From positions 1 to 55,911 of the forward strand of contig NZ_JACHVA010000089.1 in the NCBI RefSeq assembly GCF_014230055.1: DNA of 55,911 bases, read 5' to 3'. Both the position numbers and the translations under genes were made by a program. Source of the stretch: Puniceicoccus vermicola. GTDB lineage: Bacteria; Verrucomicrobiota; Verrucomicrobiia; Opitutales; Puniceicoccaceae. This document shows positions 8,572-51,210 of this stretch, piece after piece. How positions within the stretch are numbered: position 1 is the stretch's first letter; every line of letters begins with the position of its first letter. Below the pieces are notes generated by a model. The model saw only the letters and a list, made by a program, of their open reading frames with translations, ran no database searches and was not told where the DNA came from.

Positions 8572-9030
8572 ATGGCTTCCTACAACCGCGTCATTCTAAT
8601 CGGAAATCTCACCCGCGATCCCGAGGTGCGTTTCGCGAGTGGGAACAATGCCATCTGCAAGTTTGGTCTCGCGGTCTCGCGGAACTACACGACGCGGGAT
8701 GGTGAAAAACGCGAGGAAACCACTTTCGTCGACATCGATGCTTTCGGCAAGGTAGGCGAGATCCTCGGTAAGTACCTGTCGAAGGGGCGGCCCGTCATGA
8801 TTGAGGGGCGTCTCCAACTCGACACCTGGGAAAACAAAGAGGGCGAGAAGCGCTCCAAGCTCAAGGTCGTCTGCGAAAACTTCCAGTTCCTCGGCTCCGG
8901 TCGGGGAGGTGATGAAGAAGGCAGCGGCGGCGGTGGTTATACCCGCAGCTCTCCTCCTCCCCGAGAAAGCTCTTCACGGTCCGGCGGCGGCCCGGCTGAA
9001 GATTTTGATGACGAAGACATTCCCTTTTAA
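8572..9030 (+). CDS. ssb: Single-stranded DNA-binding protein
   Basis: The 152-residue protein has an OB-fold of about 110 residues (MASYNRVILIGNLTRDPEVR, RPVMIEGRLQLDTWENKEG). A Gly/Ser/Pro-rich linker follows, then the acidic C-terminal tip DFDDEDIPF, which recruits replication and repair partners. Confidence 0.96.
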   Translation: MASYNRVILIGNLTRDPEVRFASGNNAICKFGLAVSRNYTTRDGEKREETTFVDIDAFGKVGEILGKYLSKGRPVMIEGRLQLDTWENKEGEKRSKLKVVCENFQFLGSGRGGDEEGSGGGGYTRSSPPPRESSSRSGGGPAEDFDDEDIPF

Positions 9031-9516: not shown

Positions 9517-10427
9517 GTCAACTTTTCCCCGCCGCAGCGCAGAGAAACGACCGCTCCTCCCGTGCCCGCTCCGGCGGCGCAAAGGCGAGCAGAACTCCTT
9601 CCTCTCCGCCGCAGTGTCGGGAACCCTTTTATCCGGAAGCCGCTTTGAGCGGCTTTCGGTGTGTCTGGAGGGTAGCGGCCATGGCCTCATGGCTCATCTC
9701 GTCGAGCCTGCCATGGTTTCACGGCCCATCTATTGCTCGGTTTGTTTCGGATTTCATTGGGGATGCGGGTTGGACGAATCCGTTAAGGACCCGTCCGCGC
9801 CCCCAAGCTCCCCACCGGATGGCTCTGGACCTCTCCGCCTACGAGCATATCCTTCCACACAAATTCCTAGACTAACGTTTTCCTGTAAGAGTATGTCTAA
9901 AATGGAGCGCGGAATTCATTCCGCCCCGTCAGATTGGCTGCGCATGAAAAGTTACCCTCAGGATCTAAGGCGAAAGGCCTGAGTGGCATGCGGGCCGGAA
10001 TGAATTCCGCGCTCCCATGTTCTTGCGTTTGCGAAACCGCCCAGAGCCATAGGCTTGTGTGTAAGAATATACCTACGAGTAGAAGGGGAATCCGTCTATT
10101 GATCGAGACTCCTCCCTTGCTTGTTTAAACCTTGAGCTTGTCGATAGGCAGGGGAGGGGGACCCCCGACGATTTCGGGGGTGGAGCGGTGCTGACCCAGT
10201 TATAATTTGCCAATAATTCTCTTAAATCGTCTTCAACCAGTGCCATTCGGGCCAACCCGCTCTACCTTCCGTTCGCCGATGGAGCCCTCGATGAGAGCTC
10301 TGTGAAGAACTTTTCGCTGGAGAGGATGAATCAGGCTGGAACTGAGGCGGACTTGGCGTAATCCTTCCGATCCACTGAATTTGGCCGGGGAGTTTTTGAA
10401 AATTTCTCCCGGCATTGGAAACACAGA
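9517..10427. other. Long non-coding gap between rplI and dnaB with hairpins
   Basis: No convincing gene is seen in these 911 nt; open frames look random. A stem AAGCCGC/GCGGCTT near 9637-9656 may mark the end of the rplI transcript but lacks a T run. Other structures are the 20-bp inverted repeat at 9904-10015, a hairpin built on ACCCCCGA/TCGGGGGT at about 10158-10180, and an imperfect stem (GCCGGGGA/TCTCCCGGC, about 10383-10414) immediately before the dnaB start. Confidence 0.5.
9904..10015. repeat. Perfect 20-bp inverted repeat with 72-nt spacer
   Basis: The left arm 9904-9923 begins GGAGCGCGGAATTC and the right arm 9996-10015 is its exact reverse complement. Each arm contains the internal palindrome GGAATTCATTCC-like core. 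Two such arms around a short spacer recall bacterial interspersed mosaic or miniature elements mobilised by RAYT transposases, and a RAYT gene is at 19909-20865. Confidence 0.75.
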
Positions 10428-39840: not shown

Positions 39841-39983
39841 CGCCGAACTCTGCACGTTAATCACAGGAGAGGTGGCTTGGAATCGCGCGACTGAAGTCAT
39901 GCGAGAACGGGGAATTGAGGGGTGTTCTCCGGATTTGGATCTAGGGCTTGTTTTTTTGCAAATAGTGGCACAAGACCTGCATT

Positions 39984-40015
39984 GAGTATTATGATTTGAA
40001 AGAATCGTAATAATC
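39984..40015. promoter_or_regulatory. NikR-type operator candidate before the importer operon
   Basis: GTATTA (39986-39991), 16 nt, TAATAA (40008-40013). The classical NikR site is GTATGA-N16-TCATAC, so geometry and half-sites are nearly conserved. The whole element is a 13-bp-arm dyad with two mismatches (39984-39996 and 40003-40015), 15 nt before the binding-protein start. Confidence 0.75.
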
Positions 40016-40029
40016 AAAAAGGTCCAACT

Positions 40030-41037
40030 ATGAAACAACACTCGATCAAAAATCTAACTCGCATCGGCCTCACGACACTCGTGGGCCTCGTCGGCATCTC
40101 CTCGGCTCGAGGAGAGGAACCTCTCAAAATCGCTTACAGTGACTGGCCGGGATGGGTCGCCTGGGAAATCGGCATTGAAAAGGGCTGGTTTGAAGAAGAA
40201 GGCGTGGACGTGGAGTTCCTGTGGTTCGATTATGTTGCATCCATGGATGCCTACGTGGCCGGGCAGGTCGACGCGGTTACCATGACCAATGGGGACGCAC
40301 TCGTGACGGGAGCGACTGGTAAACCTTCGGTCGGCATTATCATCAACGACTTTTCCAACGGGAATGACATGATCGTCGGAGGTCCGGGAATCTCTTCGAT
40401 CACCGATCTGAAAGGGAAGAAAGTCGGAGTCGAAGAAGGTTTTGTTTGTCACCTCTTGCTCCTGAAAGGGCTTTCGGACAACGGGATGACCGCAGACGAC
40501 GTCACCATCGTGAACACTCCTACGAACGAGACTCCGCAGGTATTGGCTTCGGGAGCGGTTTCCGCAATCGGTGCCTGGCAGCCCAATTCTGGTGAAGCTC
40601 TGAAGCAGACTCCAGGTTCGACTCGCGTCTATTCTTCGGCAGACAGCCCCGGCATCATCTATGATTTGCTCTTTGTCTCGCCGGAATCTCTCGAGACCCG
40701 TCGTGACGACTGGGCGAAGGTGGTCAAGGTCTGGTATCGGATTGTCGACTACTTGAAGGATGAAGACAACATTGACGAAGCCTTGGAAATTCTCTCGGCT
40801 CGCGTGAACCTGTCTCCTGCCGAGTATGAGCCTCTCTTTGCCGGTACCTACATCCTATCTCTCGACGAAGCGAAGGAGCGCTGGGAGGAAGCAGAAGGCT
40901 TGGACAGTGTCTACGGTTCCACCGAATTCGTGGATGACTTTAACGTGAAGTTCGAAGTCTACGACAATCCTCTGAACACCACTCAGTATCTCGATCCTTC
41001 CTTGACCGAGGAATACGCAGAGTCGGTCGAAAACTAA
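40030..41037 (+). CDS. ABC transporter substrate-binding protein (NMT1/SsuA-like, urea-carboxylase-linked type)
   Basis: The 335-residue protein has a signal peptide ([20 protein letters not shown], cleaved near SSARG). The periplasmic-binding fold of the NMT1/THI5-TauA group follows: [71 protein letters not shown]. Close relatives accompany urea-carboxylase-type clusters and are thought to import the nitrogen substrate. Start ATG 40030 follows an AAGG ribosome site. It opens the ten-kilobase operon under the NikR-type operator. Confidence 0.88.
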
Positions 41038-41074
41038 TTGGGACGTCTTCGAGCGTCATAATCACTTGAGTTCT

Positions 41075-41104
41075 GTTGGGGGAGGGGAGTCCGATCCTCC
41101 CAAC
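41075..41104 (+). promoter_or_regulatory. Stem-loop between binding-protein and permease genes
   Basis: GTTGGG...GGA (41075-41088) pairs with TCCTCCCAAC (41095-41104) with two small bulges. It has no T run. Such stems after binding-protein genes often protect the upstream message and raise its level over the membrane components. Confidence 0.5.
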
Positions 41105-41145
41105 CCTCTCCAGCTAAAATTGAATAACCGGTCCTCGATAAAATT

Positions 41146-42540
41146 ATGTCGAAAGAAAAGCCATGGTTTGCGATCCGCAAGTCGCTGTCTCCACAGCGGC
41201 AAACGATCCTGACCCTTTGCTCCTTCCTCCTGCCGGTTTTGGTATGGTGTGTGGTGAGTTACGTGCCGTTTATCTGGCATCCCGATATGGTGGTCACGAT
41301 TTCCGCCGATCGGAGCGACGTCACCACGGTTTACTCGGCCGGGGATCGTCTTCCCCGCCATAAGGAAAGCGAGAACGATTTCGCTTTTGAAGATTTTGCC
41401 GAAGCGGTCCGGGTTCAGAACCAAGGAATCGTCGAGGCGCGTGAAGCCGGAACTCCGATCGAGACTTCTCGGCGCACGAATAAAAAGGTATTGCGTCACT
41501 TGGCACCTGTGGGAGTCGCCGAAGGCTGGCTCGACCGCGATCAAGCCACTGACGATGCCGCCATTTATCAACTTTGGGGCGAGATCGCCCGTGGGGAAAA
41601 GGTTCCTTCGAAGGTTCCTCTTTCCGAAGAAAACAAGCAGATCGTTCAGGAAAATTGGGACATTCTCAGTGGAATTAGCGATACCTATGAGTCGAAGGAG
41701 ATCCCTTCCGAGGCACTATTGAGTCTGGTTCCTCAAGGAAAACCCTCCAATCCGGTCTATGTGCCGCCTCCGCACGAGGTAATAGAAACGGGTTGGTATG
41801 ACTGGACCCGCGAGCGGGACCCTTCGAAACCGGGGATGCCGGACCGCTATGTGCACTCATTGAAAATTGTTTTTGGAGGATTTTTCCTCTCCTGTTTGAT
41901 CGGAATCCCTCTGGGCGTCCTGAGCGGCACCTACGACTTCTTTGCCAAACTGGTAGAGCCGTTCACTGACTTTTTCCGCTACATGCCGGCGCCAGCCTTT
42001 GGAACGGTGCTGGTGGCGATCCTCTCGGTTTACGATGCACCGAAGATTGGCCTCGTTTTTCTGGGGACCTTTTTTCAGATGGTCCTCGTGATCTCGAATA
42101 CCACCCGGACGCTGGATCGTTCTCTCCTCGAGGCGGCCCAAACCCTGGGCGCTAAGAGTCGTCAGCTCATGCTGAGGGTGATCATTCCGGGGATTCTTCC
42201 CAAGCTCTACAATGACCTGAGAATCCTTTTGGGATGGGCCTGGACGTGGCTCGTGATTGCCGAGCTTATCGGAACCAAGTCCGGTCTGACCGAATTTATT
42301 GAAACGCAGGGTCGATTCCGGAACTTCGACAGCGTTTATCCAACAATTATCGTCATCGGACTCACCGGCTACATCACCGACCAAATCCTCGCGAGCATCC
42401 GACCGATCATTTTCTCCTGGGACCCTGAGCATTCTGGGAAGAAGCCGATGTGGATCTTCCGTGGATTTCTCTGGTTGATTGATCGCGACTGCTATGAACC
42501 GACTCCGGCGGAGAGCAAACCACTGGCCTCACGCCGCTAA
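41146..42540 (+). CDS. ABC transporter permease with large N-terminal insert
   Basis: The C-terminal ~230 residues form a SsuC/TauC-type permease (SLKIVFGGFFLSCLIGIPLG, the EAA loop LLEAAQTLGAKSRQLMLRV, and IPGILPKLYNDLRILLGWAW). In front, a first membrane helix (about 24-46, LCSFLLPVLVWCVVSYVP) is followed by about 190 soluble residues (50-235), probably periplasmic. Total length is 464 against about 260 for ordinary members. The insert has an alternating charged, helical look with no recognised domain. It could dock the binding protein. Confidence 0.9.
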   Translation: MSKEKPWFAIRKSLSPQRQTILTLCSFLLPVLVWCVVSYVPFIWHPDMVVTISADRSDVTTVYSAGDRLPRHKESENDFAFEDFAEAVRVQNQGIVEAREAGTPIETSRRTNKKVLRHLAPVGVAEGWLDRDQATDDAAIYQLWGEIARGEKVPSKVPLSEENKQIVQENWDILSGISDTYESKEIPSEALLSLVPQGKPSNPVYVPPPHEVIETGWYDWTRERDPSKPGMPDRYVHSLKIVFGGFFLSCLIGIPLGVLSGTYDFFAKLVEPFTDFFRYMPAPAFGTVLVAILSVYDAPKIGLVFLGTFFQMVLVISNTTRTLDRSLLEAAQTLGAKSRQLMLRVIIPGILPKLYNDLRILLGWAWTWLVIAELIGTKSGLTEFIETQGRFRNFDSVYPTIIVIGLTGYITDQILASIRPIIFSWDPEHSGKKPMWIFRGFLWLIDRDCYEPTPAESKPLASRR

Positions 42541-42561
42541 CTCACTCAACCGAAAACGCTT

Positions 42562-43461
42562 ATGTCAGAAGAGTTTAAATTACCGAGCTACCGCGAACAG
42601 AGTCCAAAGGTAGCCGAACGTTTCCGGAAAATGTACTCCCGTCCGGTGAAGATGGAGATCAAGGGATTGTCCAAGACGTTTCAGACCTCCAAGGGGACCA
42701 CGACCGCTTTGAAGGGGATCGACTTCAGTATCTATCATCGCGAATTCGTTTCGGTGATCGGCCCCTCGGGGTGTGGGAAATCGACTCTCATCCGGATGCT
42801 TGCCGGGCTCGATTTTCCCACTGGTGGAGAGGCCCTACTCGAAGGGAAGCCAGTGACGGGACCGGGAAGTGATCGGGGAATGGTATTTCAGGGCTATACG
42901 CTTTTCCCTTGGTTGACGGTGAAGAAGAACGTGATGTTCGGGCTTGAGCTGTCGGGGAAATCGGGTTCGGCCGTGGAGTCGGAGGCACGGTCCTGGATCA
43001 ACATTGTCGGACTGAGCGGGTTTGAGGATTCCTATCCCAGCCAGCTCTCCGGGGGGATGAAGCAGCGGGTGGCGATTGCCCGGGCTTTGGCGAACAATCC
43101 GAGAATCCTTTTCATGGACGAACCTTTCGGGGCTCTCGATGCGCAGACCCGGTCCCAGATGCAGGCTTACCTCCTGCAGATCTGGAAAAACGTCGATGTG
43201 ACCATCATGTTCGTCACTCACGATCTGGACGAAGCCATTTATCTCTCGGACCGTATTCTCGTTCTCAAGGCAAATCCAGGGGAAGTGAATGAAGTCATCG
43301 AAGTGCCAGTGCCGCGTCCGCGCACGCCCGAGCAATTTATTTCGCCCGAGTTTCTGGCGACCCGCAAGCGTTTGGAGGAGTTGATTCATCCGAAGGGCGC
43401 TCAGGAAGAGAAAGAACTGCCTGTTGTGCGGATGGTCGGAGCGGAGGACGAGGTCGAGTAA
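42562..43461 (+). CDS. ABC transporter ATP-binding protein
   Basis: This 299-residue ATPase of the SsuB/TauB class has Walker [18 protein letters not shown]-loop [11 protein letters not shown], signature [16 protein letters not shown], Walker [13 protein letters not shown] and switch His in [12 protein letters not shown]. It has an additional ~35-residue N-terminus ([20 protein letters not shown]) and a C-terminal extension. Its stop codon overlaps the creatininase-family start (TAATG). Confidence 0.94.
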
Positions 43462-44231
43462 TGACGAACAGGAATGCACAGACCGATTGGAGCCAACTCA
43501 CTTGGCCGGAGATTGAGGAATTGCTCAATGAAGGGCAGACTGGGGTGATTCTGCCGATCGGTGCGACCGAGCAGCACGGACCCCATCTCGGAGTGGGGAT
43601 GGATAGTGCGCTGGCCGAGCGGTTGGCCCGTGGTGCCGCGGAGGCCACTGGCGTTCCCTGTCTCCCGACGATTCCTTACGGGTGCTCTTTGGGGCACTCT
43701 CACCGCTGGCCGGGAACGCTGGCTCTCCGTCCCCAAACGCTGATTGAAGTGATCGTGGATCTGGGCCGCTGGCTTTTTCAATCCGGATTCACTCGTTTAT
43801 TCATCGTGAACGGACACGTGGGGAACCGTTCCCCGCTTCGCTGCGCACTCGAGATTCTCCGCGCGGAGTGCGAGGACTTTAAAATCGCTATTTTCACAAC
43901 CGGAACTCTGAGTCCACGAGTTCAGGATGCATTCGATGTCGATGCGAAAGACTGGCACGCGAACGCTGCCGAGACATCATTGATGATGCATCTTTTCCCG
44001 GATCTGGTCCGGGAAGACCTTCTGAAGGATTCGGATGATCCGGACCGAACGGAGAATTGCGTCTTCGCTCACCCAGTTAACCGGACCAGTAAGAATGGAG
44101 TGACCGGGAAGCCCTCCGCAGCTTCCAGCGAGATGGGGGCGAGCTTGTTCGAACAAATGGTCGAAGACCTGAGTGAGCAGATTTGCCGAGGAATTTCGGA
44201 GCGTTCTCCTTTGGACGTATCCTTTCAATAA
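43461..44231 (+). CDS. Creatininase-family amidohydrolase
   Basis: The 256-residue metal-dependent hydrolase shows the creatininase signatures: LPIGATEQHGPHLGVGMDSA (Glu, His and Asp metal ligands), GCSLGHSHRWPGTLAL, FIVNGHVGNRSPLR (metal His; the usual NGHGGN is NGHVGN here) and HANAAETSLMMHL (metal Glu). Members open cyclic amides such as creatinine or hydrolyse formamide-type substrates. It is translationally coupled to the importer ATPase, so it probably acts on the imported compound or a downstream amide. Creatinine hydrolysis itself is not implied. Confidence 0.88.
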   Translation: MTNRNAQTDWSQLTWPEIEELLNEGQTGVILPIGATEQHGPHLGVGMDSALAERLARGAAEATGVPCLPTIPYGCSLGHSHRWPGTLALRPQTLIEVIVDLGRWLFQSGFTRLFIVNGHVGNRSPLRCALEILRAECEDFKIAIFTTGTLSPRVQDAFDVDAKDWHANAAETSLMMHLFPDLVREDLLKDSDDPDRTENCVFAHPVNRTSKNGVTGKPSAASSEMGASLFEQMVEDLSEQICRGISERSPLDVSFQ

Positions 44232-44252
44232 CTACTGAAAAATACCAATATT

Positions 44253-45671
44253 ATGAGTCTATCTGAATACAAAGCTCTGCCGTATTCCCGTGCTCGCGGG
44301 GATGCCTTCGGCAGCCTTCCCTCGGACGAGGAAATCGATAAAATCCATAAGGAGCTGGAAGCCGCCGGGGTAAAATACACCGTAGGTGCATACGTGGACA
44401 TCCACGGGGTTCCTAAGGGGAAATTCGTTCCTCTGTCCCATTTTAAGCACTTTGCCAAGGGTTCGGAACTCTACACGGGCTACGCTCTCGATGGTCTGGG
44501 CCAGAGTCCGAACGACGACGAGATCTGCTCGATTCCGGACCTCGGCCACATCATTCAACTGCCCTGGCAGCCTGAAGTGGCTTGGATGCCCGCCGACAAT
44601 GGGTTTAAGGGAGAGCCTTACGAGGTGAATTCTCGTGTGGCGCTGCAAAAAGTCCTGAAAAAGGCGAATGACATGGGCTTCGGGATGAACCTCGGGGTGG
44701 AGCCGGAAATCTTTGTCATCCGCAAGAATGAGGATGGCTCGATCGAGGTGCCGGATGCCGAGGACAAACTCGTGAAGAGTTGCTACGACGTGCGCTGCTT
44801 GATGACCCGTTTCGAGTGGATCGACAAAATGTCGACGACCATCGATGCGTTGGGCTGGGAGCTCTACTCGCTCGACCATGAGGATGCCAACTCGCAGTTC
44901 GAGTTCGATTTCAAGCATTGCGACGCTCTGACGATGTGTGACCGCTTGATCTTCTTGCGGATGATGGCCAAGCAATATGCGGAAGAAGAGGGCCTTGTCG
45001 CCACCTTCATGCCGAAGCCGTTTGCGAATAAGACGGGAAGTGGTGCCCACTTTAACATGTCGCTCTATGACCTCGAGACCGGAGGAAATCTCTTTGAAGA
45101 TCCGAACGACCCGCGGGGACTGGGCCTGAGCAAACTCGGATACCAATTTGTCGCCGGGATCCTTCGCCATGGACCAGCCCTATGCGCCGCTTTTGCGCCG
45201 ACCGTGAACAGCTACAAACGTCTGGTGCGTCGCGGATTGATGGCTTACTACTCGTGGGCACCGGTTTTCAACTCTTACGGACGCAACAATCGCACAAACT
45301 CGGTCCGGATTCCGATGGGCGGGGGACGTGTCGAGTCGCGCAATGCCGATTCCTCCTGCAACCCTTATCTTGCGGCGACGCTGGTGTTGGCTGCAGGCCT
45401 TGAAGGAATCGCCGAAGATCTCGATCCGGGCAATCCTCAGGAAGTGAATCTCTACGAGCTCGATCAAGCCGGTTTGGCAGAGCGCGGCATTCAGGAACTT
45501 CCACGGACTCTTCACGAAGCGGTTGAAGCCTTTGCTGCGGATCCATTCGTCACCGAAACCCTTGGCGAAGAGCTGCGTAATGAATTCGTCTCTTACAAGA
45601 GCGAGGAGTGGATCCAGTATCACCAGCGGGTTAGCGCCTGGGAGATCGAGGAATACGTGCAAAAGTTTTAG
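44253..45671 (+). CDS. glnT: Glutamine synthetase, type III GlnT-like
   Basis: The 472-residue protein has the GS beta-grasp ([20 protein letters not shown]) and the catalytic barrel: GVEPEIFVI metal glutamates, [27 protein letters not shown], the NSYKRL ATP/ammonia segment and [16 protein letters not shown]. It matches the GlnT group rather than GlnA. The segment [10 protein letters not shown] resembles the adenylylation-loop tyrosine of GSI-beta. It would assimilate ammonia released by the operon's enzymes; some GlnT relatives are gamma-glutamyl ligases for amines, so a substrate-modifying role is possible. Confidence 0.88.
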
Positions 45672-45684
45672 TTTTGGCCTGTCG

Positions 45685-45712
45685 GTATTACTAATTGTTT
45701 AAAAAATAATAT
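45685..45712. promoter_or_regulatory. Second NikR-type operator candidate, before the regulator gene
   Basis: GTATTA (45685-45690), 16 nt, TAATAT (45707-45712), ending 27 nt before the regulator ATG. It has the same half-sites and identical spacing as the element at 39986-40013. The region between is A/T-rich and could hold the -10. Confidence 0.72.
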
Positions 45713-45739: not shown

Positions 45740-46183
45740 ATGAAGCGTATGAGTGAGCCCATCGAAAGAATCAGCCTCTCCATGCCTCGCAGCCTTGTGC
45801 GGCAATTGGATGAAATGATCGAAAGGAGAGGCTTTGAGAGCCGATCCCAAGCGATCTCGACCATGATCCACCAGCAAGTGGCGGAGCATGCCGAGGACTT
45901 GGGCAACGAGGTGACGACCGGGACGATCAATATTGTTTACGAGCACGGGCGCAATAATCTGAAGAAGCGCTTGGCGGAGATCGAATACGAGAATATCGCG
46001 GAAGTCATCAGCTCGCTCCATATTCTCCTCGAAAGCCAGCAAACGTTGGAAGTGATCCTGGTTCAGGGACCGGCCAGCAAGCTGCGACAGATAGCGAACG
46101 AACTCATCAGCTGTAAAGGGGTGCGGAGTGGAACCCTGAATATCCACTCCGCTGTCATCCCGCAGCTGCACGCGAAGAATTGA
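45740..46183 (+). CDS. NikR-like ribbon-helix-helix regulator with degenerate nickel site
   Basis: The 147-residue protein has the NikR order: RHH DNA-binding domain ([20 protein letters not shown], then [11 protein letters not shown], residues 8-45) and a C-terminal ACT-like metal-binding domain ([20 protein letters not shown]). In the NikR alignment only the His of SSLHILL (His87) is kept; His76, His89 and Cys95 are replaced by Tyr, Leu and Thr. It therefore is unlikely to sense nickel. Its DNA-contacting strand R-x-S-x-S parallels NikR R-x-T-x-T. Position in the middle of the operon and the two N16-spaced sites imply local autoregulation. Confidence 0.88.
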
Positions 46184-46200: not shown

Positions 46201-46929
46201 ATGAGCCAATCAAAGAAGAACCTGTTCAGTCGGGAACTGGGCGGTGGACAAATGTGGTCGAAAGTCATTGGCCGGGGGAAATGCCTCCGGATGACTGACC
46301 TCGAGGGAGGGGCGAACGTCGGTATGCTTCTCTACAATGCGCTGGAAAAAACGGAGCGTTACAACATGCCGGACACTCTCAAGGGGCAGAAGATTTTCTA
46401 TCTCCGGGAGCCATATTGCCTGCACTCGGACATGGGGCGAATCCTTGCCTCGATTGTCGAAGACGGTCCGGGCTGGCACGACACGGTTTGCGGCACCTCT
46501 CTTCCCTCCCTCGTCGAGGAGAAGTATGGTAAGAAAGACTACCAGGAAGCGCACAACGATTGGTATCGTGCGGGTCGGGAGTTGTTTCTTATCGAGCTCG
46601 GAAAATGGGGGCTCGGTGAGCGGGATTTAGTCCCGAACATCAACTGGTTCAGCAAGATTGCCCCGGACGAGGAGGGGAAGCTTTCCTACGTTCCCGGTCA
46701 TTCGACTGCGGGATCCTCGGTAACGATTCGCTTCGAGCTCGACTCGCTCGTGGTCCTCAACACCTGCCAGCATCCTCTCGATCCGAATCCCCGTTATGAG
46801 CCGAAACCGGTCAAATTGGAGGTCTTTGAAGCCGATCCGGTTACGAGTTACGACCCGAGTCGACTGGTGCGTCCGGAAAATGAACGGGCATTCCAGAACA
46901 CCGAAGACTATAACCTTCTACGCTTCTAG
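46201..46929 (+). CDS. DUF1989 urea-carboxylase-associated protein 2 / carboxyguanidine deiminase subunit homologue
   Basis: From ATG 46201 (with AAAGAAG before it) the product has 242 residues and the DUF1989 layout: [51 protein letters not shown] and [16 protein letters not shown], with a closing [14 protein letters not shown]. His and Cys in these blocks are probable metal ligands. DUF1989 pairs were long called urea-carboxylase-associated proteins and are now known in guanidine utilisers as the heteromeric carboxyguanidine deiminase CgiAB. The stop is directly followed by the next ATG. Confidence 0.88.
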
Positions 46930-47574
46930 ATGATGAGTAATTTGACTGAAAGCCAACTACTGCCAGAGAACGCGGTTTACGAACATACCATCCGGGCCGG
47001 AGATCACTGGATGCGGCGTATCGAAAAAGGGCAGACCTTTCGCATCCTGGACCTCAAGGGAAACCAGGCGGCGGACACGCTCTTCTACAACGCTGAGGAT
47101 CCGGATGATCGCTACAGTGCTTCGGATACGATCGCGGCGCAAGGGGCGCTCTACCTGACGACGGGAACGCGGTTGATGTCCACGCGGGGGACTGAGCTAT
47201 TGAAGATTGTCGCGGATACCTGCGGGCGTCACGACACTCTCGGTGGCGCCTGCTCCCGCGAGAGCAACACCATGCGCTATGCCCACGACAAGGAGCATAT
47301 GCATGCTTGCCGTGACAGTTTTCTCCGGGGCGTACAGAGCTGGTGCCATCACATGGATAAGCGCGATGTGACTTGTAACATCAACTTCTTCATGAACGTT
47401 CCGGTGACTCCTGAAGGAGAGCTCGACTTCGCTGACGGGATCTCGGCTCCTGGCCGGTATGTTGAGATGGTGGCGAGTTGCCCGGTGATCGCCTTGATCT
47501 CCAACTGTCCTCAATTGAACAATCCGTGTAACGCCTACAATCCGACACCCGTTCAGGTTCTCATCTGGGACTGA
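46930..47574 (+). CDS. DUF1989 urea-carboxylase-associated protein 1 / carboxyguanidine deiminase subunit homologue
   Basis: This 214-residue partner starts [20 protein letters not shown] and has [71 protein letters not shown] and a final [20 protein letters not shown]. The HDT/CS and C-N-I-N blocks match its neighbour, as expected for paralogous subunits. Zero-gap arrangement with the preceding gene indicates one complex. Together with the carboxylase it would convert carboxyguanidine to allophanate, or assist a urea carboxylase if the substrate is urea. Confidence 0.88.
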
Positions 47575-47622: not shown

Positions 47623-50600
47623 ATGTTTAAAAAGATACTGATAGCCAATCGCGGCGAGATCGCCGTTCGCATCATTCGCACTGCCCAGAAGCTTGGAGTT
47701 CAGACCGTAGCGGTCTATTCCGACGCAGACCGGAATGCTCCCCATGTCTCTATGGCGGATGAATCCGTGCGGGTAGGGCCGGCGCCGGTTTCGGAAAGCT
47801 ATCTGAATCAGGCGGCGATTGTGCAAGCCTGTGTCGACACTGGGGCCGAAGCGGTTCATCCGGGCTATGGTCTCTTGAGCGAATCCGCTACCTTCGCCGA
47901 GGCTTTGGAAGCGGCGGGGATCGCCTTTGTCGGACCCAGGCCCGAGCATCTGCGCAATTTTGGGCTGAAGCACACGGCCCGTGATCTGGCGGTGGATTCG
48001 GGAGTGCCTTTGGTGCCGGGGACCGATCTGTTGACCAGCCTCGCTGAGGCGCAGGCGGAGTCGGAGAAGATTGGCTATCCGATCATGCTCAAGAGCACGG
48101 CAGGCGGAGGAGGGATCGGAATGCAGATCTGCCGCAGCGCTGAAGACCTTGCCGAAGCGTTTGAGCGGGTCAAACGATTGGGGCAGTCCAATTTCGGCGA
48201 AGGGGGTGTTTTTCTCGAAAAGTATATCGAGCGAGCGCGCCACTTGGAGGTTCAGATCTTCGGGGATGGAAAGGGTGGGGCCGTATCGCTCGGTGTCCGG
48301 GATTGTTCCGCTCAACGCCGGAATCAGAAAGTCATTGAGGAGACTCCGGCCTCTGGAGTGCCGGAAGAGGTCTTGGAGGGATTGCAGTCGTCGGCTGTGA
48401 AACTGGCCGAATCTGTAAAGTATCGGTCTGCCGGGACCGTCGAGTTTATCTATGATGTTGGGGCCCAGGGCTTCTACTTCCTCGAGGTGAATACACGCCT
48501 CCAGGTTGAGCACGGAGTTACGGAACAGGTTCAGGGCGTCGATTTGGTCGAGTGGATGATCGCCTTGGCGGCGGATGAGCTTTCTTCGCTCGCACTTCCG
48601 GATAACCGACCGGGAGGGCACAGCATCGAAGCTCGCATTTACGCAGAAAATCCCCTGCAGGATTTTCGTCCCTCGAGCGGCCTGCTCAATCATGTTCAAT
48701 TTCCGGAAGGCGTTCGATGCGATCATTGGATCGCGTCCGGAGCGGAGGTGAGTCCTTATTACGATCCCTTGCTGGCGAAGATCATCGTTCATGAAGAATC
48801 CCGCGAGGAGGCCCTTCAGGCTTTAGAGAAAGCGCTGCGGGATACGGAACTCTACGGCATTGAGACGAATCGGGAGTATTTGATCGCCTTGGCCGGAAGC
48901 TCCTTGTTGGCGGAGAATGAGATGACGACCCAATCGTTGGCCTCTTTCGCTTATGAGCCGCGGATGATTGACGTTTTAAAACCCGGCACCCAAACGACCG
49001 TGCAGGACTTTCCGGGACGCCTTGGCTACTGGGATGTTGGAGTCCCACCGTCCGGACCGATGGATTCCCGATCGTTCCGTTTGGGGAATCGCCTCCTTGG
49101 AAACGATGCGGATGCTGCGGGCCTGGAAATCACGGTTCAAGGACCCAAGCTTCATTTTCACTCGAGCACGACGATCGTTCTTACCGGAGCGACGACGGAC
49201 GCCACCGTTGATGGTGATCCAATAGACTTCTGGGGGCCGGTTGTGATCGAGGCGGGTTCGGTGCTCGATGTGGGGCAGGTGAGTGATGTCGGGATGCGGG
49301 CTTATCTCTGCATCGCCGGGGGATTCGATGTCGCCGAATATCTGGGAAGCAAATCCACTTTTACCCTCGGTCAGTTTGGCGGACACGGGGGGCGGGCTCT
49401 ACAGACTGGCGATGTTCTTCATTTTAATGGTCCATCCGGGTTGGCCGTTTCCGAAGAGCTGCCGGAAGCATTGCGTCCGCAGTGGTCGAACCATTGGTCG
49501 ATCAAGGTCTTATACGGCCCGCACGGTGCTCCGGACTATTTCACTCCGGAGGATATTGATACCTTTTTGAACACGGATTGGGAGGTGCACTTCAACTCCG
49601 CCCGCACCGGAGTTCGGCTCATCGGTCCGAAGCCCCAATGGGCCCGCACCGATGGAGGCGAGGCGGGGCTTCACCCTTCCAATATTCACGACAACGCTTA
49701 CGCGGTCGGGGCTGTGGACTTTACGGGCGATATGCCGGTGATTCTCGGTCCGGACGGGCCGAGTCTGGGGGGCTTTGTTTGTCCGGTGACGATTGCCGCG
49801 GCGGAGTTGTGGAAGATCGGTCAACTGAAGCCAGGCGACACAATTCGTTTCGAGTGCGTCACCCAAGAAGAGGCAACCCGGATGTTGGAGGCGTCAGAAA
49901 CTCTGCTTCAGGACCTCAATGGTCCAGACGTCGTTCCGGAGATTCATGTTCCAGTCGGCGATGAAGCGATCCTTGTCGACATGGGGGAAGGGGATGACCG
50001 CTGGGTGGTTCGCCAGTCTGGAGATGATAACGTCTTGATCGAGTTTGGTCCGCCGGTTCTGAACCTTCGGCTTCGGTTTGCCGTGCACGTCTTTTACGAG
50101 GCCTTGAAGGAGGATCTCTTCGAGGGAATTATCGACCTGACCCCGGGAATACGCTCTCTGCAGGTGCATTTTGACAATCGGAAGGTGAGCCGGGCTGCAG
50201 TTCTGGAATGGGTGAGGAATAAGAAGGAAGGCTTGGGTCCATTGGAGGATCAGACCGTGCCCTCGCGGATCGTTCATCTACCTTTGTCCTGGGATGACCC
50301 GGCAACCCAGAAAGCGATAGACCGCTACATTACCTCGGTTCGAGACGATGCTCCTTGGTGCCCCTCGAATCTGGAGTTCATCCGCCGCATGAACGGGCTC
50401 GATTCGATTGAAGACGTGAAGAAGATCGTTTTTGAGGCGAGCTATGTAGTTCTCGGTCTCGGTGATGTTTACCTCGGAGCTCCGGTGGCAACACCGTTGG
50501 ATCCGCGACAGCGTCTGGTAACCACCAAATACAACCCTGCCCGCACCTGGACGCCGGAGAACGCGGTTGGGATCGGCGGAACTTATCTCTGTGTCTATGG

Positions 50601-51210
50601 GATGGAGGGACCGGGTGGATACCAGTTTGTGGGAAGGACGCTTCAGATGTGGAATCGCTACGGTTCGTCGGAGTCATTCCACGACGACACGCGATGGCTC
50701 CTTCGGTTCTTTGACCAGATTCGTTTTTATCCCGTATCGGCGGAAGAGCTCTTGGAGATCCGTGAAGATTTTCCGAACGGACGATATCCAATTCGTATTG
50801 AAGAAAGCTCCTTCTCGCTGGCCGAGCACGAAGCCATGCTCGAGCGCGAGGCGGACAGTATCGCCGAGTTTAAGGAAAAGCAGCAGACTGCATTTAATGA
50901 AGAGCGCTCGCGGTGGAATGAGGCGGACCAAAAGTCGGCTCAGCAGGAAGTCGTTGATTCCGACGAAGTTGATACCGAACTTCCCGAGGGGGTGGAAGCG
51001 GTGGAGAGCCCGGTTGCAGGGAGCCTCTATCAGATTCTGGTCGAGGAAGGAGACTCGGTCGAAGAAGGACAAGCGGTCTTAATTGTCGAATCCATGAAGA
51101 TGGAGATCACAGTCACCAGCCCCAATGCCGGAACCGTGCAGTCTATCCTCAAACAGCCGGGTCAACCGATCAAACCGGGTGAAATCTTGCTCGGGGTCGA
51201 CCCGTCCTGA
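47623..51210 (+). CDS. Biotin-dependent urea/guanidine carboxylase
   Basis: The 1195-residue multidomain enzyme contains biotin carboxylase ([20 protein letters not shown], the ATP loop [13 protein letters not shown], and [20 protein letters not shown]; residues 1-450). The carboxyltransferase made of KipA/KipI-like halves follows ([29 protein letters not shown], then [44 protein letters not shown]; about 455-1040). A Glu-rich linker and biotinyl domain ([10 protein letters not shown], biotin Lys in VESMKMEIT) close it. Length and order are those of stand-alone urea carboxylases; the DUF1989 partners favour guanidine as substrate. No allophanate hydrolase domain is fused. Confidence 0.93.

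Follow-up and report, generated by a model that had tools for sequence, protein, structure and literature searches.

A NikR-family regulator without the nickel site and its predicted operators in a guanidine operon of Puniceicoccus vermicola

Positions 1 to 55,911 of contig NZ_JACHVA010000089.1 of Puniceicoccus vermicola (55,911 nucleotides, hereafter the window) contain an operon that we assign to guanidine use, in which the gene for a NikR-family protein and two copies of the palindrome GTATTA-N16-TAATA are found. We interpret the protein as a nickel-blind repressor with the NikR fold that controls this operon and is released by guanidinium or a compound of the pathway, and we hold this reading as a whole to be probable. 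An earlier note, made from the sequence alone, had described the palindromes as NikR-type operators of a nitrogen operon. Sequence comparison now points beyond that note to a nickel-less clade of regulators, a guanidine-assimilation regulon and a presence in two phyla.

Two N16 palindromes in the window

Both palindromes lie on the forward strand where the earlier note had placed them, and the sequence matches exactly as it was written there:

39986-40013, + strand: operator 1, GTATTA-TGATTTGAAAGAATCG-TAATAA, N16; spans the inferred sigma-54 start site
45685-45712, + strand: operator 2, GTATTA-CTAATTGTTTAAAAAA-TAATAT, N16; precedes the regulator gene

Their position just before an importer gene and a NikR-like gene is likewise borne out. 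Sixteen bases lie between the end of operator 1 and the start codon (ATG, 40030) of the gene for the substrate-binding protein, and operator 2 falls inside a 68-base gap between the stop codon of a glutamine-synthetase-like gene (45671) and the ATG of the NikR-like gene (45740).

When the window was scanned for GTATTA-N16-TAATAC with at most two mismatches, three places were found where shuffled sequence gives an expectation of 0.22; three places were equalled in 1 of 100 shuffles, and the third (5374) is unrelated to the operon. There are two exact matches to GTATTA-N16-TAATA in the genome of 5,204,456 bases, both in this operon, and of the three places with one mismatch genome-wide two are operators 1 and 2. 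At up to two mismatches to the 12-base pattern the genome shows no excess (53 places versus 89 for a reversed control), so that the enrichment check proposed in the earlier note returned a random frequency. Such a frequency is expected for a local regulon of two sites. The weight of the sites therefore comes from position and conservation and not from genome-wide numbers, and motif counting across the genome was dropped as proof of operators because the two-mismatch counts equal background.

The regulator has a NikR fold but not the nickel site

The protein encoded downstream of operator 2 scores 79 bits against the NikR_C domain (PF08753, cut-off 22) and 29.8 bits against the ribbon-helix-helix (RHH) domain (PF01402, cut-off 20.5), and is the only NikR_C protein found in this genome. 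Almost its whole length can be aligned to solved NikR structures (phmmer E 2.2e-29 for 2bj1), and with the NikRs of E. coli, H. pylori and P. horikoshii it shares the whole-length combination of an RHH and an ACT-like domain. An AlphaFold model built on three sequences (mean pLDDT 68.6) agrees with this fold: every one of the 50 rows listed in a structure search with it is a NikR, and solved NikR C-terminal domains are found at ranks 38-50 (target TM 0.81-0.90; whole-chain TM about 0.5).

E. coli NikR binds nickel with high affinity through His76, His87, His89 and Cys95, according to a passage of PMC7055735. At the positions of His76, His89 and Cys95 the window protein has Tyr83, Leu96 and Thr102, and only H94 is kept. 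The description as NikR-like in the earlier note thus stands for the family and fails for the nickel site, which is lost.

To place this loss we sampled 384 genomes from the class; 84 of them (the window's own included) encode a relative of the regulator at E <=1e-8. Apart from the window's own match there were 86, and all were retrieved with stretches of up to 9 kb on each side. Regulators were called linked where the stretch contained UAAP or carboxylase genes, which gave 48 linked regulators in 47 genomes and 39 unlinked ones. None of the 48 linked regulators, one of which (L120) ends before the Cys position, has the four-ligand nickel site (HHHC), which 38 of the 39 unlinked ones possess, and no genome in the sample carries both a linked and an HHHC unlinked kind. 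The unlinked exception (L117, genome G075) is a truncated HHHY regulator that falls in the linked clade; neither UAAP nor carboxylase genes lie in its stretch, G075 has no listed over-cut-off carboxylase, and L117 is likely a remnant. In a tree from which the ligand columns had been removed, and which leaves out L064 and L120, 46 linked regulators and L117 form one clade (100/99). Typical of linked regulators are Gln109 (55/55) and Glu98 (51/55), at whose positions the 38 HHHC proteins have Arg/Lys and Asp, respectively; this comparison leaves out L064, L120 and L117. The pattern suggests, without proving it, that the two residues help to build a new ligand pocket.

The window protein could in principle be what automated annotation would call it, an ordinary nickel-responsive NikR, and control a nitrogen operon by chance. 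It passes both NCBIfam models concerned, NF003381 for nickel-responsive NikR (117.5 bits, cut-off 105) and NF002815 (84.3, cut-off 83), and its operators have the geometry of the E. coli NikR operator. We nevertheless regard this as very unlikely, given that three of the four ligands are gone, that HHHC is missing throughout the linked group and that family scans of the operon genes recognised neither a nickel enzyme nor a nickel transporter. On sequence grounds the regulator appears instead to belong to a nickel-less clade, distinguished from NikR by the missing ligands, by Glu98 and Gln109 and by a place beside guanidine rather than nickel genes. With its nickel ligands lost, it would not be a nickel sensor.

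Conservation of the operators

We next scored the 300 bases upstream of regulator or importer genes for palindromy and a GTAT core modelled on the E. coli site (threshold 12 of 14) in 83 regions from 47 clusters, the window's included. L003 and L004 were dropped as duplicates of the loci L037 and L062; L064, a near copy of L063, was left out of the spacing count and kept in the palindrome listing and in the residue 5 and sigma-54 shuffle counts. At N16, 44 of the 83 regions score at least 12 (26 of the 47 upstream of regulator genes and 18 of the 36 upstream of importer genes), versus 0-3 regions for any of the 18 other spacings between N8 and N26, and at least one N16 site is found in 30 of the 47 clusters. 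Conservation upstream of orthologous operons, a check set beforehand, is therefore strong, and the single favoured spacing is the one seen in the window and in the E. coli NikR operator, GTATGA-N16-TCATAC. Upstream of the 39 unlinked genes, scores of at least 12 number six at N16, four at N17 and two at N15, with none at N14 or N18.

Perfect palindromes are frequent among the clusters (GTATTA-N16-TAATAC, GTATGA-N16-TCATAC and GTAATA-N16-TATTAC), and paired halves co-vary between the GTATTA, GTATGA and GTAATA types. The nearest named relative of the window is an Opitutia genome of the same genus (L003), which keeps operator 1 and has GTAATA-N16-TATTAT as its regulator site; a further one belongs to Chthoniobacteraceae (L004), and both are Verrucomicrobiota. 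In eight genomes whose UAAP clusters have no regulator match, none of 12 regions reaches the threshold (best score 11). One of these genomes (G216) has an HHHC NikR elsewhere. The co-variation and the lack of sites in regulator-less clusters lend comparative support to the local regulon proposed earlier.

A TATTAT box overlaps site 1 and the two-mismatch genome count is at background, as would be the case if the motifs were chance palindromes or -10 promoter boxes. The restriction of palindromes to N16 and the 12 siteless regions of regulator-less clusters make this explanation exceedingly improbable. Both operators are, judging from these comparisons, very probably real and regulon-defining.

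Several loci depart from this arrangement. L151 (G203, same genus) has a guanidine operon with sigma-54-like boxes, and neither a regulator gene nor an operator was found there. One group among the clusters in which no site reached the threshold has GTAACACG-N12-CGTAACAC repeats. The importer promoters of L065, L071 and L072 have non-palindromic GTAACAC...GTAACAC repeats, and the regulators there keep two or three histidines (HHHY/HSHY).

Residue 5 and the half-site type

The type of half-site corresponds to residue 5 (E. coli numbering) of the DNA-reading strand. Thr5 accompanies half-sites with G at base 5 (GTATGA type) at 12 of 13 loci and Ser5 accompanies the GTATTA or GTAATA type at 17 of 18, an agreement of 29/31 loci (p 1.1e-6 at locus level) or, per half-site, of 37/38 and 50/54. 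We dropped this as proof of protein-DNA co-evolution because two independent pairs on starred branches are too few for significance, and we regard the correspondence as suggestive. Genome G258 has two linked regulators (L069/L070), one with Ser5 and GTAATA/GTATTA operators and one with Thr5 and GTATGA/GTGTGA operators, possibly a natural specificity switch.

The operon is assigned to guanidine

The genes between and beyond the two operators are, in order:

40030-41037, + strand: substrate-binding protein of an ABC importer (NMT1; nearest NCBIfam model TIGR03427, under its cut-off)
41146-42540, + strand: ABC importer permease (family scans)
42562-43461, + strand: ABC importer ATPase (family scans)
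43461-44231, + strand: creatininase-family amidohydrolase (PF02633)
44253-45671, + strand: type III glutamine-synthetase-like ligase (TIGR03105, above cut-off)
45740-46183, + strand: NikR-family regulator (RHH and NikR_C), with Y83, H94, L96 and T102 in place of H, H, H and C
46201-46929, + strand: UAAP1, DUF1989, carboxyguanidine deiminase subunit (TIGR03425, above cut-off)
46930-47574, + strand: UAAP2, DUF1989, carboxyguanidine deiminase subunit (TIGR03424, above cut-off)
47623-51210, + strand: guanidine carboxylase (model name urea carboxylase), Asp892 (TIGR02712, above cut-off)

CgdA and CgdB, the subunits of carboxyguanidine deiminase, are placed within PF09347 in the relevant passage of PMC11410670. 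UAAP1 and UAAP2 are DUF1989 (PF09347) proteins of the CgdA/B type, and both deiminase subunits are present in the operon. For the carboxylase, a passage of PMC12186494 gives a specificity rule in which Asp marks guanidine and Asn urea; it contains no residue number, and we took the Asp892 column as the published position. Among 62 near-full-length carboxylases aligned, all 58 that are linked to UAAP genes or the regulator have Asp in this column, and the four without either have Asn (three, including the C138 copy described below) or Ala (one). The alignment leaves out six fragments with <1,100 aligned residues (L041, L045, L052, L063, L066 and L153), and L064 as well. UAAP genes lie in the stretch of 57 of the 58 Asp enzymes; the other (L070) has the regulator only, and the UAAP genes of its genome, G258, sit on another contig (L069). 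It is on Asp892 and the CgdA/B-type proteins that we assign the operon to the use of guanidine as a nitrogen source. The earlier note was thus correct in reading the operon as one of nitrogen use, with the correction that the nitrogen source appears to be guanidine.

The same genome encodes a second carboxylase, 55% identical to the window enzyme, on contig C138. Allophanate hydrolase is encoded outside the operon, at C138, in what is the sole over-cut-off copy of the genome, and the window operon may depend on it. The C138 stretch (G000:C138:94000-112000, L140) is a separate urea cluster of the urea amidolyase type, with an Asn carboxylase, the allophanate hydrolase and Urt-like transporter genes, the last called by reading translations, with no family scan. 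It shares a homologous carboxylase with the guanidine operon and differs from it in its Urt-like and allophanate hydrolase genes; no UAAP gene or regulator match was found in the stretch, and neither of the two upstream regions checked contains an operator.

A sigma-54 type promoter adjoins operator 1

39966-39981, + strand: sigma-54 type promoter, TGGCAC-AAGAC-CTGCA; GG-to-GC distance 12 bases, consensus matched at 10 of 12 positions

Five bases separate the promoter GC (39979-39980) from operator 1, which would put the start site at about 39992, within the operator. RpoN is encoded in the genome. Boxes that have the GG and GC correctly placed and match the consensus at 9 or more of 12 positions occur in 32 of the 36 importer regions. 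Across all 85 regions, boxes of at least 9 are found in 52 and of at least 10 in 31, versus 4.6 and 0.4 in shuffles that preserve single-base composition only. Seventeen importer regions have both an operator and the boxes; in 12 of them the operator lies 5 to 17 bases past the -12 element and should therefore overlap or follow the start site. A sigma-70 promoter was considered for operator 1, which overlaps a weak -10-like box, and rejected; sigma-54 boxes fit the clusters better. The predicted layout of promoter and operator in the window suits a blocking repressor.

Guanidine riboswitches

In riboswitch-run guanidine carboxylase operons of Raoultella, Klebsiella and Vreelandella, an importer, a carboxylase and carboxyguanidine deiminase occur as in the window, with a guanidine riboswitch upstream; none was found here. 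An Rfam scan of 30000-55911 gave no match at E 1. In genome-wide searches with strict filters, by which weak matches are lost, guanidine-I was found in 0 of the 384 class genomes (B. subtilis was the only positive among 14 controls), and classes I, II and III, the three searched for genome-wide, are absent from the window genome. Among the 47 linked genomes, four have guanidine-III and seven guanidine-II (one under the family cut-off). All 11 lie on another contig or >1 Mb from the cluster, and nine of the 11 adjoin a gene with SMR-exporter motifs (a pattern match, with no family scan). From these positions, exporters can be controlled by RNA, and the assimilation operon appears to be controlled by the NikR-family protein. 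The portions of open-access full text that we searched contained no protein regulator of guanidine genes and no NikR in such clusters.

Related clusters in Pseudomonadota

A search of a plasmid collection returned 68 records, the 13 best matches coming from Sphingobium, Novosphingobium, Acinetobacter and Asticcacaulis; nine of these 13 (H1-H5, H8 and H11-H13) were read. In all nine, UAAP and carboxylase genes lie beside the regulator, residue 5 is Ser and HHHC is missing (AHFS, QHQI etc.). The annotation of a nickel-annotated contrast match (H14) shows no UAAP or carboxylase neighbours. N16 sites occur in seven of the nine loci and total 14, versus 3 to 7 at other spacings (N12-N20); 12 of the 14 are upstream of a cluster gene. 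Three N16 sites are found in an Acinetobacter baumannii record, one each before the UAAP genes, the regulator and the permease. None of the four loci searched against Rfam gave a match at gathering score.

In L162 (Novosphingobium resinovorum pSA1) two regulator copies lie in one guanidine cluster, at 9001 and 12513, with N16 sites at 9529 and 12480. The second copy is the one read for this locus; the choice among repeated matches also bears on the UAAP1/UAAP2 labels of the plasmid loci, and linkage does not depend on it. In L157 (Acinetobacter plasmid NZ_CP015595.1) SMR transporter and 2OG-Fe(II) oxygenase genes adjoin the regulator in the guanidine cluster. A 2OG dioxygenase that demethylates methylguanidine occurs in riboswitch-controlled guanidine operons, according to a passage of PMC12508155.

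A model for regulation of the operon

In the model that we propose, the regulator would have kept RHH-based DNA reading and the N16 geometry and lost the nickel site. Bound to operator 1, it would repress the operon for guanidine import and carboxylation at the expected sigma-54 (nitrogen-control) start site; bound to operator 2, it would repress its own gene together with cgdAB and the carboxylase. It would be released by a small molecule, most likely guanidinium or a breakdown intermediate, held in the ACT-like C-terminal domain. With the operator on a nitrogen-controlled promoter, the operon would need both signals, so that expression would require nitrogen limitation and the inducer together. 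The parts of this model differ in strength. It is highly likely, from the sequence comparisons, that the operon-encoded NikR-family protein is the binder of both predicted operators, and that it acts as a repressor is probable; the chances that the inducer is guanidine or a pathway compound are about even.

The regulator may instead bind these sites and sense nitrogen status, another metal or another metabolite, for example glutamine, 2-oxoglutarate, allophanate or zinc. The sigma-54 boxes of the importer promoter are often a mark of nitrogen control, a glutamine-synthetase-like gene lies within the operon, and several linked regulators retain some histidines. However, the regulator accompanies UAAP-type clusters and is found near none of the four UAAP-less urea-type carboxylases, and sigma-54 may already supply nitrogen control. 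We consider such a ligand unlikely, though less so than nickel, and retain release by guanidinium or a pathway compound as our preferred reading.

A number of observations weigh against that reading. No site at threshold is found in 17 of the 47 clusters, and eight UAAP-bearing genomes manage without the regulator. In 5 of the 17 importer regions that combine an operator with sigma-54 boxes, the operator lies at least 65 bases upstream of the boxes, and 2 of the 14 Pseudomonadota N16 sites (both L156) are away from cluster genes. The residue 5 link rests on four tree changes and cannot be shown to be significant once kinship is counted. Basal linked regulators retain two or three histidines (HHHY, HHHS, HLHS), and some of them may bind a metal still. 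Finally, the guanidine reading leaves the creatininase-family and glutamine-synthetase-like genes (43461-45671) unexplained.

The analysis provides a specific candidate for a guanidine-responsive regulator in two phyla, with its probable operators mapped. It also calls for caution in annotation, because the window protein passes a model that pipelines use for nickel-responsive NikR. If the reading is true, a metalloregulator has been re-purposed with its DNA code kept. More tentatively, the NikR-derived family as a whole could be a guanidine-sensing transcription factor of Verrucomicrobiota, Sphingomonadales, Caulobacterales and Acinetobacter, a protein counterpart of the guanidine riboswitches in which a metal pocket would have been turned into a guanidinium pocket.

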